Source: Deltaproteobacteria bacterium (lineage in GTDB: Bacteria; Myxococcota_A; Polyangia; Haliangiales; Haliangiaceae). From it: a stretch of DNA of 52,695 nt. Positions 32,881 through 40,419 of the stretch are shown in pieces; position 1 is the stretch's first letter, and each line of letters opens with the position of its first letter. A program made the translations under genes and the position numbers. The stretch covers positions 1 through 52,695 of the forward strand of contig JANXOM010000326.1 in NCBI GenBank assembly GCA_025353585.1, in the 5' to 3' direction. The notes beneath the pieces were generated by a model. It saw only the letters and a list, made by a program, of their open reading frames with translations, was not told the origin of the DNA and searched no databases.

Positions 32881-33798
32881 ATGTCCATCCCTCGCGCAGT
32901 GGTCTTCGCGTTGCACTGCAGCATCGCGGTCTCCTCGGCGGGGTGCGGCGGCGCGACCGAGCAGAGCTGCCAGCATGACAGCGACTGCCCGTCGAACTTC
33001 TGCAAGGCAGACGGCACGTGCGCGGCGGTGGAGACGGACGGCGGCACGCTCCCGCACGACGGCCCCGGCGGCAGCGTCACGGACGCGCCGAACGGCGCTT
33101 GCACGCCGAACCATGACGGCACGATCAGCGCGGACGAGGTGCCGCTGATGGCGGGGCGCATGGCGAACTTCCGCATCGCGACGGACGCGACGACCGAGAC
33201 CGCGGGCACGCCCGGCTCGGGCGGCACGCACACGTGGGATCTCTCGGCCCAGCTCTCCGGTGATGCGACCGTCGCCGTCACGCTGATCCCTCCCACCGGC
33301 GCCTACTGGGCGACCGCGTTCCCGACGGCGACGTACGCCACGCCGCTCTCCGCTGGCTCGGACGTGCTCGGCCTCTTCGACGTGACGGACACCGCCGTCA
33401 CGCTGGTCGGCGTGGTGTCCCCGACCAGCGGCGGCACGACGAACCTCAAATACACGCCGCCCGCGACGATCCTGAAGCTGCCATTCAAGGCCGGCGACAC
33501 CTGGACCTCGTCCTGCACGGTCACCGGGACGCTGAGCGGCATCACCTCCAACTACACCGAGAAGTACACCTCGCGCGTCGACGAGGTGGGCACGATGACG
33601 ACGCCGTACGGCGCGTTCCCCGTGCTGCGCGTCGCGACAGATCTGTCCGACCTGCAACTCACGGTGCCGTTCAACGCGAGCCGCACGTTCGCGTGGGTGG
33701 CCGAGTGCTTCGGCACGGTAGCGACCATCACGTCGCAGGCGAACGAGACCGGCTCCGAGTTCACGAACGCGGCTGAAGTGAAGAGGCTCGCCCCGTGA
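32881..33798 (+). CDS. Lipoprotein 1 of the PHA operon (CxPNxDG motif)
   Basis: A 305-residue predicted lipoprotein: leader with lipobox SSAGC, then a Cys-rich segment (SCQHDSDCPSNFCKADGTC) of the type common in myxobacterial surface proteins. A conserved beta-rich domain opens with CTPNHDGTISADEVP, which resembles an EF-hand loop lacking its first Asp. Shared with the paralogue at 36589: HTWDLSAQL, the AECFGTVATITSQANE region and the end FTNAAEVKRL. No known family was recognised. First gene of the operon. The message is probably leaderless. A TTGCACTGCAGCAT motif (32911-32924) lies inside its leader codons. Its stop overlaps the next start. Confidence 0.8.
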   Translation: MSIPRAVVFALHCSIAVSSAGCGGATEQSCQHDSDCPSNFCKADGTCAAVETDGGTLPHDGPGGSVTDAPNGACTPNHDGTISADEVPLMAGRMANFRIATDATTETAGTPGSGGTHTWDLSAQLSGDATVAVTLIPPTGAYWATAFPTATYATPLSAGSDVLGLFDVTDTAVTLVGVVSPTSGGTTNLKYTPPATILKLPFKAGDTWTSSCTVTGTLSGITSNYTEKYTSRVDEVGTMTTPYGAFPVLRVATDLSDLQLTVPFNASRTFAWVAECFGTVATITSQANETGSEFTNAAEVKRLAP

Positions 33799-34769
33799 CC
33801 GCGGCGCGGCTCCTGCTCGTGGGGCTCGCCAGCATCTGCTTCGGCGGGTGCCCGAGCTTCCACGGCGAGCCGCTCACCGGCGCGCCGCCAGACGCGACGT
33901 TCGTCGATGTGGACGGCGTCCATGTCCGCTACCGCGACACCGGCACCGGGCCGGCCGTCGTGATGATCCACGGCTACGGCGCGTCGCTCGAGAGCTGGGG
34001 TAACGTCGCGCCGGTCGTCGCGGCGCACCACCGCGTGATCGCGATCGACCTCAAAGGCTTTGGCTGGTCGAGCCGGCCCGACGGAGACTACAGCCCCGCC
34101 GCGGAGGCCGCGCTCGTGTGGCGCGTGCTCGACAAGCTGAAGGTCGTCGACGTCGCGATCGTGGCGCACTCGTGGGGCAGCTCCGTCGGACTCGCGATGG
34201 CCGTGGCGCAGCCGGCCCGGGTCCGGCGCGTGGCGCTGTATGACGCGTACGTCTACGATGACCAGGTGCCCGGCTTCTTCCGCTGGGCGCAGAAGGGCGT
34301 CATCGGCGAGGTGCTGTTCGCGCTCTACTACAAGGAGCGCATCGAGGACCGGGCGCCGCTCGCATATTTCGACGAGCGCTGGGTGACGCAGGCGCGCGTC
34401 GATCGCGTCGAGGACGATCTCGACAAGCCGGGCACGGTCGCGGCCGCGCTGGCCGCGGCACGCGGGCATCACTTCGGGCCGCTGCACGAGCAGCTGCGCG
34501 GCTTCACGCAGCCGGTGTTGCTGCTCTGGGGCGAGGAGGATCAGGTCACGCCGCTCCGCTTCGGCCAACGGCTGGCCGCCGAGCTCGCGGACGCGGAGCT
34601 GAAGGTGTACCCGCGGTGCGGCCACATCCCGATGGTCGAGGCGCACAACGCGTCGACGCGGGACCTGTCGCGGTTCCTCGATGGAGAAGTGGGGACCGAG
34701 GTGATCGAGCTCGATGATCCGGCCGCGACGGACAAGGCCGCATCCGCGACCTCGCAAGGGACGCCGTGA
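33795..34769 (+). CDS. Alpha/beta-hydrolase lipoprotein of the PHA operon
   Basis: A 324-residue exported hydrolase with lipobox FGGC. The fold is clear: VVMIHGYGASLESW (oxyanion loop), IDLKGFGWSSRP, nucleophile elbow VAHSWGSS, acid in GEEDQVTP, and the late His in RCGHIPMVE. The triad is complete. It belongs to the broad family of esterases, haloalkane dehalogenases and epoxide hydrolases. Because it is exported and encoded with an outer-membrane barrel and PhaC, it may release hydroxy- or fatty acids outside the cytoplasm; this is inference. GTG start overlaps the upstream stop. Confidence 0.85.
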   Translation: MTAARLLLVGLASICFGGCPSFHGEPLTGAPPDATFVDVDGVHVRYRDTGTGPAVVMIHGYGASLESWGNVAPVVAAHHRVIAIDLKGFGWSSRPDGDYSPAAEAALVWRVLDKLKVVDVAIVAHSWGSSVGLAMAVAQPARVRRVALYDAYVYDDQVPGFFRWAQKGVIGEVLFALYYKERIEDRAPLAYFDERWVTQARVDRVEDDLDKPGTVAAALAAARGHHFGPLHEQLRGFTQPVLLLWGEEDQVTPLRFGQRLAAELADAELKVYPRCGHIPMVEAHNASTRDLSRFLDGEVGTEVIELDDPAATDKAASATSQGTP

Positions 34770-39373: not shown

Positions 39374-40419
39374 CCGCGACGCCGAAGAAATCGCCTCTCG
39401 ACTCGCTCGCCGCGCTGCTCCGCCGCGCGCCGAAGGGCCCCGCCGTGGTCGGCGTCACGCCGCACACCGTCGCGTGGAGCGAGAACAAGTGGCGCCTCCT
39501 GCGCTTCACCCCGACCGTGAAGCGGCATGCGCGGCCCATCCTGTTCGTACCGTCCTTGATCAACCGCTGGTACGTGCTCGACCTCGGGCCCGGCCGGTCG
39601 CTGATCGAGTGGCTCGTCGCGCAGGGCCACGAGGTGTTTTGCATCGACTGGGGCACGCCGGGCGCAGAGGACCGGTACCTCACGTGGGACGACATCGGCG
39701 GCCGCTACCTCGGGCGCGCGGTGCGCGTCGCGTCCCGGCTCGGCGGCACGGGCGATGTCCACGTGCTCGGCTACTGCCTCGGCGGCACGCTCGCGACCGC
39801 GTACGTCGCCGCGTTCCCCGAGCACGTCGCGTCGCTGCTCGCGCTCGCCGCGCCGATCGACTTCGACCAGGCCGGCATCATGGCGCTGTGGACCCGCACG
39901 CCGGCGTTCGATGTCGGCGCGATCGTCGACGCCTTCGGCAACGTGCCGTGGCAGCTGATGCAGGCGAGCTTCCAGATGCTCAAGCCGACCATGGCGGCGA
40001 GCAAGGTCGTCGGCGTCCTCGACCGCGCCTGGGACGACGAGTTCCTCGAGAGCTTCCTCGCCACCGAGCGCTGGGGCGGCGACAACGTCTCGTTCCCCGG
40101 CGCCACCTACACGCGCTACATCGAGGCCCTCTATCGCGGCAACCAGCTCGTCCGCGGCGGCTTCTCCGTGTGCGGCCGGCCGGTGGACCTCGCCGCCATC
40201 CGCTGCCCGGTGATGGCGGTCGCGTTCGAGGACGACCACATCGTGCCGATCGCGTCGGCTGCGCCGCTGATCGAGCGCGTCGCCAGCCGGGACAAGTACC
40301 TGCTCGGCATGCGCGGCGGCCACGTCGGCGCCGTCGTGTCCCGCAAGGCCGCCGATCGCCTGTGGCCCTCGCTCGCGAAGTTCTGGGCCGAGCGCCCGGG
40401 CACGCCGACCGCGTCCTGA
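39370..40419 (+). CDS. phaC: Class III poly(3-hydroxyalkanoate) synthase subunit PhaC
   Basis: A 349-residue polymerase joining hydroxyacyl-CoA into polyester. The lipase-like box GYCLGG holds the catalytic Cys136. FEDDHIVP supplies Asp289 and RGGHVG supplies His318. The spacings Cys-Asp (153) and Asp-His (29) equal those of the class III Allochromatium enzyme (Cys149, Asp302, His331, from memory), and the length also fits class III rather than the ~590-residue class I. Such enzymes require a PhaE partner; the small protein at 37410 is the candidate. Last gene of the overlapping operon. Confidence 0.93.

Follow-up and report, generated by a model that had tools for sequence, protein, structure and literature searches.

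In a 52,695-nucleotide stretch of DNA from a Deltaproteobacteria bacterium (GCA_025353585.1, contig JANXOM010000326.1), a predicted outer-membrane-type module of four genes adjoins genes for the synthesis of polyhydroxyalkanoate (PHA). The same module goes with the PHA locus in many relatives, with which, as judged from sequence, it in part shares operator-like palindromes. The whole stretch, hereafter the window, comes from an 8.0 Mb assembly of 437 contigs that is 89.9% complete. The operon (32881-40419, plus strand) codes for two lipoproteins (LP1 and LP2), an alpha/beta-hydrolase (HYD), an outer-membrane beta-barrel (OMB), a small PhaE-like protein (PHE), an acyl-CoA synthetase (ACS) and a PHA synthase (PhaC), in the order LP1-HYD-OMB-LP2-PHE-ACS-PhaC. 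A preliminary description of the window had reported seven plus-strand genes joined by overlaps of 1-4 bases and one 2-base gap, which the coordinates confirm (Table 1), and had proposed a fixed coupling of a surface module to a PHA synthase. PHA loci have, to our knowledge, been described as cytoplasmic, with synthase, phasin, regulator and monomer supply. We consider a link of the module to PHA metabolism very probable.

Within a first set of 56 genomes (the window's own and 55 relatives), searched with the barrel as query, a clear group of OMB orthologues was found in 28 other genomes, with 43-73% identity and at least 309 bits. The remaining barrel matches reached at most 160 bits, and one short fragment of 68% identity in genome G002 may be a cut orthologue. 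We compared the neighbourhoods of the 28 orthologues with those of 12 of the many paralogues (8-18.5 kb each for the 12). PHE comes after LP2 in 23 of the 28 orthologue loci; among the other five, three contigs end at LP2 or within 0.3 kb after it, and loci L058 and L059 lack PHE for about 1.0-1.2 kb. No divergent gene order was seen among these 28 loci. Operon partners were found at none of the 12 paralogue loci, among them the second TIGR04551 copy of the window's own genome, and profile searches gave the same result. The possibility raised in the preliminary description, that the barrel and lipoproteins occur mostly away from PHA genes, thus holds for the 12 paralogue loci and not for the orthologues.

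A second set, the best 80 of 159 relatives from a scan with the barrel alignment, partly overlaps the first, and the counts are not summed. It includes records of Kofleriaceae, Polyangiaceae, Sandaracinus, Labilithrix, Byssovorax and Archangium. All seven genes stand in the window's order in 54 of the 80 loci, and contig ends truncate another 16, so that the same order in several genera, which had been named as support for the coupling, was found across many families. Ten loci are different or undecided (L091, L121, L127, L128, L131, L133, L138, L143, L145 and L149); six of them give profile matches to PHE, PhaR, a PhaC-like gene or, strongly, ACS, and no such match was obtained in L133, L143, L145 and L149. 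Stop/start overlaps of 1 or 4 bases join LP1-HYD in 53 of 69 cases, HYD-OMB in 63 of 78 and ACS-PhaC in 36 of 55, counts that took the start codon nearest the preceding stop and so favour overlaps. Neighbour clusters recurring in at least nine of the 80 loci are PhaR, PhaC2, phasin, a short-chain dehydrogenase/reductase, a major facilitator superfamily (MFS) transporter and one unnamed cluster. An MFS transporter is the first gene of the operon in 11 of the 80 loci, separated from LP1 by -17 to +74 bases; that of locus L100 gave no match to solved structures by sequence.

The association extends to a survey of 377 Myxococcota genomes, with thresholds of E <=1e-80 for OMB and at least 84 bits for a strong PHE, a level reached in 68 of the 99 genomes with any PHE match at E <=1e-6. 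OMB was found in 73 genomes belonging to 22 families, proteins of LP1/LP2 type in 74, and both in 72. OMB and strong PHE occur together in 60 genomes, with 13 having OMB only and eight PHE only (Fisher p 1e-47, a value that ignores relatedness), and PHE lies within 6 kb of OMB in 57 of these 60. PHE or PhaC is nearby in 65 of the 72 genomes with OMB and lipoproteins: 57 have PHE within 6 kb and eight have PhaC on the fetched stretch (G090, G119, G128, G185, G245, G295, G326 and G368). Of the other seven, three have PHE on another contig (in G235 the break falls inside LP2), two are at contig ends (G038 and G305), and the last two are G222 and G254.

Gene order varies in the arrangement survey, which keeps one gene per stop-to-stop stretch, so that a partner can be hidden. 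In the six genomes of group f18 the module is oriented away from PHE-ACS-PhaC, in five of them after phaR and phaC2; in three f40 genomes PhaC precedes ACS; and in f27 PhaC stands ahead of the module, as does ACS in two of three. In a tree of 59 PhaC-like proteins the partners of the module fall into separate well-supported groups, and some long branches are unsure. The predicted LP1-HYD-OMB-LP2 module is found beside several separate PhaC lineages, with differing gene orders. PHE without the module occurs in eight genomes, with ACS and PhaC in five (G048, G224, G250, G277 and G390), with PhaC and no ACS seen in G294 and G324, and with ACS at a contig end in G378; the listed completeness is 100% for both G224 (one contig) and G390 (two contigs). 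Judged by these eight genomes, the module needs the PHA locus more than the locus needs the module, which therefore resembles an accessory of PHA synthesis.

Further evidence comes from the palindrome TTGCNNNGCAA, which occurs twice between phaR and LP1 and whose three copies in the window compare with 0.25 expected. The motif was selected in the window by visual inspection, and its placement was then examined in the 80 loci (1,287,168 bases). Target regions were the stretches of up to 400 bases that precede LP1 (or the leading MFS gene), phaR, phasin and phaC2, together 6.3% of the sequence. Target regions hold 62 of the 77 copies, against 4.9 expected, while none of 47 control palindromes had more than six target hits (6 of 93), rare ones reaching up to 1 of 2 or 2 of 6. 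The spacer is R-N-Y in 68 of the 77 copies. By gene, the palindrome lies upstream of LP1 in 23 of 72 loci, of the leading MFS gene in 5 of 12, of phaR in 27 of 65, of phasin in 17 of 49 and of phaC2 in 7 of 33; three copies precede inner genes (HYD 1 of 78, OMB 1 of 80, LP2 0 of 80, PHE 1 of 69, ACS 0 of 69, PhaC 0 of 61). A related form, CTGCNNNGCAG, precedes LP1 in 3 of 69 loci, compared with 0.95 in shuffles. The placement of the palindrome connects the module with the control of PHA and fits a single promoter region in front of LP1, but an exact copy is missing from most loci; a scan for sigma-70-like promoters found none.

PhaR of other bacteria recognises CTGC-N3-GCAG-like sites. Two palindromes with one mismatch (30670 and 30714) lie upstream of the phasin-like gene. 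Binding of PhaR to the phaP and phaR promoters is known (PMC9049629, PMC7204398), and a candidate operator-like site is common here to phaR, the phasin-like gene and the operon, as in a PhaR regulon. The genome has 46 further palindrome sites in 8.0 Mb. Three R-N-Y sites lie outside this contig (on C29, C153 and C292), each, judged by eye, inside an open reading frame (ORF); inspection by eye, without a family scan, saw no obvious PHA gene beside them, an esterase-like ORF on C29 excepted, and sites away from the PHA locus may therefore be due to chance. That ORF (L266:4044-4742) is about 0.9 kb from the TTGCRNYGCAA site. The third TTGCRNYGCAA palindrome of the window (26284-26294) lies where a cystathionine beta-synthase-like ORF starts; this ORF is followed by a second acyl-CoA ligase gene (27744-29378). 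Together, the common gene order in many families, the rearrangements and the shared operator-like palindromes give good support to the coupling that had been proposed.

Table 1. Operon genes, neighbouring genes and palindromes in the window
Feature	Position	Strand	Remarks
LP1	32881..33798	+	lipoprotein, Cys-rich N-terminal stretch, core paralogous to LP2; 26-row alignment
HYD	33795..34769	+	lipoprotein alpha/beta-hydrolase; GTG start; 4-base overlap with LP1; signal with CFGGC
OMB	34766..36589	+	outer-membrane beta-barrel, TIGR04551; GTG start; 4-base overlap with HYD
LP2	36589..37413	+	lipoprotein, all-beta; 1-base overlap with OMB
PHE	37410..37718	+	small PhaE-like protein, 102 aa; 4-base overlap with LP2
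ACS	37721..39373	+	AMP-forming acyl-CoA synthetase; 2-base gap after PHE
PhaC	39370..40419	+	PHA synthase; 4-base overlap with ACS
phaR (PHA accumulation regulator)	32099..32878	-	divergent from operon; PF07879 88.7 bits; TIGR01848 92.5 bits
phasin-like gene	30248..30631	-	52% identity to neighbour gene of locus L078
MFS transporter, Spinster kind, beside phaR	30731..32005	-	PDB 6e8j E 7e-66, SPNS1/SPNS2 next
PhaR-box-like palindrome TTGCAACGCAA	32826..32836		upstream of LP1
PhaR-box-like palindrome TTGCACCGCAA	32751..32761		between phaR and LP1

OMB scores 306.4 bits against the NCBIfam family TIGR04551 (cut-off 300), which makes it a member, and 304.9 bits, also above the cut-off, in the six-frame genome search; it has no significant Pfam match, and its profile found no match among solved structures by sequence. 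The predicted structure is a barrel of about 18 strands (pLDDT 77.7, pTM 0.79). Its best Foldseek match is AlgE (E 4e-14, TM about 0.5), and MOMP and OccK channels also match well. The interior appears polar, charge-balanced and porin-like, with 17 conserved positive and 16 negative positions, the inward or outward call being unsure for strands whose faces are nearly alike. A FadL-like barrel was rejected on this polar interior and on the lack of PF03349 in OMB (E<=1) and in 37 homologues (E<=0.1), and membership of the AlgE family on PF13372 (Alginate_exp), which matched weakly in one of the 37 homologues (E 0.038). Residues 250-258 of OMB form a conserved GDCxDC (CxxC) loop.

Lipoprotein-like signals on LP1, HYD and LP2 and a signal-peptide-like start on OMB were recognised by eye. 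The two lipoproteins are paralogues, the LP2 profile recovering LP1 in the same genome with E 6e-47, and no Pfam family was found for LP1 (26 homologues) or LP2 (window protein only). The predicted structure of LP2 is confident and all-beta (pLDDT 92), and its fold search gave no significant match: the best was E 0.019, with a Parabacteroides lipoprotein and YmcC (E 0.03) leading and LmcA and LprG lower. The LP1 profile found only EF-hand-like solved structures (E 0.7-0.8). Both alignments have a largely conserved CxPNxDGxIxxxE motif, EF-hand-like but without the first acidic residue. HYD matches PF00561 (E 9e-30); its triad Ser126-Asp249-His277 is kept in 62 of 62 aligned sequences and a lipobox-like motif is present in 50 of the 62, after prior exclusion of 11 of 73 sequences (longer than 420 aa, read from far-upstream starts). 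TIGR03502 (VolA/Pla-1) is not among the best 25 of the 35 families listed for HYD, which therefore has no VolA/Pla-1 match better than about E 3e-6.

PhaC reaches 270.6 bits with the class III model TIGR01836 (cut-off 365.3), 169 with class I and 76.8 with class II, so class III is right as its nearest class, at a score under the model cut-off. Its nearest solved relative is PDB 5hz2, annotated as poly-beta-hydroxybutyrate polymerase (E 4e-43), and the triad Cys136-Asp289-His318 is kept in 56 of 56 aligned sequences; the predicted protein has what broadly defines a PHA synthase, a Cys-Asp-His triad on an alpha/beta fold. PHE matches the PhaE model TIGR01834 weakly (E 3e-4, 20.4 bits, cut-off 154.95), over its C-terminal part (positions 232-320 of 324). 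ACS matches PF00501 (E 2e-67), and its nearest solved relatives are a fatty-acyl-CoA synthetase and a feruloyl-CoA synthetase. The labels given in the preliminary description stand for the lipoproteins, hydrolase, barrel and acyl-CoA synthetase; class III PhaC is kept as a nearest class below cut-off, and PhaE-like as a weak match. A natural fusion of a PhaC-like protein and an acyl-CoA synthetase, of PRK07868 type, is found elsewhere in the same genome (G000:C115:16375-19356, L248; 876.5 bits, cut-off 925); in it GYSQGG replaces the Cys motif. PhaC2 beside the module in L243, L244 and L245 (G206, G279 and G362) has GYSIAG, with Ser for the catalytic Cys, and may not be a synthase there. Upstream of the module and on its strand, L127 (6905-7984), L128 (5212-6495) and L121 (about 6593-8008, assigned by its place in the PhaC-like tree) code for proteins of DUF3141/PHB_depo_C type; in L128 a symporter-like ORF lies between this gene and the module.

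The divergent phaR, the phasin-like gene and the two palindromes between phaR and LP1 add to what the preliminary description of the operon had named. Among the neighbouring genes, PhaR scores below its TIGR01848 cut-off (109.45 bits); its DNA-binding domain starts at 32716, and the true phaR start may therefore be near 32725. The phasin-like protein has no Pfam or NCBIfam match in family scans, so its name rests on place and composition. The Spinster-kind MFS transporter is a possible inner-membrane step, of uncertain membership in the system; a close relative near phaR was found only in L078 among the 80 loci, on the opposite strand. At 1461-5018 on the minus strand, a VolA/Pla-1-like lipase gene adjoins a FadL-family barrel gene (PF03349), a pair comparable to the Vibrio cholerae lipid-uptake pair; the gene at 2730-5018 scores 178 bits against TIGR03502, below the cut-off of 383.9.

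We suggest, with confidence slightly above even, that the operon is an acquire-and-store route in which surface import feeds the PHA synthase. HYD, as an outer-membrane lipoprotein, would hydrolyse hydroxyacyl esters, whether oligomers of PHA or hydroxyacyl lipids of neighbouring cells that have lysed, while LP1 and LP2 would act at the barrel by binding or guiding the substrate or the product. OMB, with its polar-lined channel, would let the acid or a short oligomer pass to the periplasm, and the inner membrane would be crossed unaided or through an MFS transporter or symporter. ACS would then form the CoA thioester, trapping the compound inside, and PhaC with PHE would polymerise it. PhaR, off the DNA when PHA is present, would turn on the module together with phasin. 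Hydroxyacyl compounds are proposed as substrate because the recurring neighbours are PHA genes. The preliminary description had left import and export of an acyl or hydroxyacyl compound side by side; the balance leans to import because of ACS in the operon, the leading inner-membrane MFS gene in 11 of the 80 loci and the VolA/FadL precedent. The acquire-and-store reading also draws on the conserved order, the co-occurrence, the arrangements beside different PhaC lineages, the palindrome placement, the invariant catalytic residues of the aligned HYD and PhaC, the polar and charge-balanced barrel interior and the VolA-FadL-like pair in the window itself. A natural source of hydroxyacyl compounds exists: Bdellovibrio, a predator, is described to release dimers and trimers of hydroxyalkanoates from the PHA of its prey (PMC4834554; strains 109J, not HD100, according to an author correction, PMC8831517). 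A sludge study describes most of its Myxococcota genomes as having PHA genes (PMC11821767).

A more specific proposal, which we hold tentatively and think rather unlikely, is that Myxococcota scavenge polyester: at the cell surface they would split extracellular PHA or (R)-3-hydroxyacyl lipids of lysed neighbours, import the resulting (R)-hydroxyacids by way of a dedicated pore, re-activate them and polymerise them directly, without beta-oxidation. If true, this would be a phylum-wide system that, controlled by PhaR, transfers stored carbon from the granules of the prey to those of the predator.

Several observations weigh against the acquire-and-store route or the generality of the coupling. 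Sequence does not reveal the direction of transport; the solved barrel closest to OMB is an exporter; and YmcC, a capsule-operon lipoprotein, is among the weak best fold matches of LP2. The resemblance of ACS to fatty-acyl synthetases makes plain fatty acids possible substrates. The module has no convincing PHA gene on its stretch in G222, G254, L143, L145 and L149, the last two on contigs of less than 5 kb. No exact palindrome precedes LP1 in 45 of 69 loci, the leading MFS gene was not found in 69 of the 80 (some cut by contig ends), and overlaps are in the minority at OMB-LP2 (27 of 80), LP2-PHE (15 of 69) and PHE-ACS (14 of 68).

The AlgE match of OMB, the YmcC-like fold of LP2 and the fact that the module mostly adjoins a polymer synthase would also suit export, in which the module releases hydroxyacyl monomers, oligomers or modified polyester through an AlgE-like barrel and lipoproteins, with HYD trimming or deacylating them. 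However, MOMP and OccK channels match OMB as well, its interior is charge-balanced, ACS works toward CoA thioesters and not toward release, and no recognised polymer exporter is among the clusters recurring in at least nine of the 80 loci; we judge export quite improbable. General lipid feeding, with HYD as lipase or phospholipase, OMB admitting ordinary fatty acids, ACS leading to beta-oxidation and PHA as a later sink, would agree with the relatives of ACS, the VolA-FadL-like pair and the Spinster-like transporter beside phaR, but the window already has its FadL-family barrel, the recurring neighbours are PHA genes and the OMB interior is polar and porin-like, so this seems unlikely to us.

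It is also conceivable, at a low probability, that PhaC and ACS are an acyltransferase pair making an envelope lipid, and not storage polymer, which the module places or trims. The PhaC-ACS fusion in the same genome and the sub-cut-off score of PhaC point in that direction; against it, many loci have PhaR, phasin-like genes and PhaC2 together with the operon, and PhaC keeps its triad and has an annotated polymerase as nearest solved relative. A chance or hitch-hiking neighbourhood, for which the modules without a PHA gene on their stretch (G222, G254, L143) could speak, is hardly credible and was rejected on the paralogue contrast, the several rearrangements, the co-occurrence and adjacency in the survey and the palindrome placement.

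We found no description of an operon of an outer-membrane module with a PHA synthase in a literature search that left most subscription journals outside, and no mention of TIGR04551 in the papers searched; none of six envelope or ligase terms occurs in the available part of a review on secreted hydroxyalkanoates (PMC7147478). If the acquire-and-store route is true, a large group of bacteria from soil and water would link the making of storage polymer to cell-surface feeding. The analysis would provide a first context-based function for one TIGR04551 group and two paralogous lipoprotein families, together with a candidate operator, and could offer parts for engineered hydroxyacid uptake.

The closest functional parallel is the VolA-FadL-FadD route of Vibrio cholerae, where VolA, a surface lipoprotein (PMC5500766), frees fatty acids outside, FadL admits them and acyl-CoA ligases act on them (PMC12208996). 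The operon is predicted to have the same succession of surface lipoprotein hydrolase, barrel entry and acyl-CoA synthetase trap; its parts are, however, unrelated, two extra lipoproteins are present, and the product, on the acquire-and-store proposal, goes to a PHA synthase of the same operon. Like class III PHA loci (phaE-phaC), the class to which profiles place its synthase closest, it has a two-part synthase and, in the vicinity, PhaR and a phasin-like gene; it differs in its very short PHE, its sub-cut-off synthase, ACS between PHE and PhaC, and the four envelope genes ahead. The (R)-3-hydroxyacyl-CoA ligase route to medium-chain-length PHA, best known from Pseudomonas, has the order proposed here, from free hydroxyacid to CoA thioester to polymer. 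In that route the acid is made internally, from fatty-acid synthesis via PhaG, unlike the outside source proposed for the operon, and envelope genes are not named for it in the relevant part of the source (PMC9049629). Finally, OMB resembles other TIGR04551 proteins in exceeding the curated cut-off, and unlike all 12 paralogue loci examined, its orthologue group lies with PHA genes.

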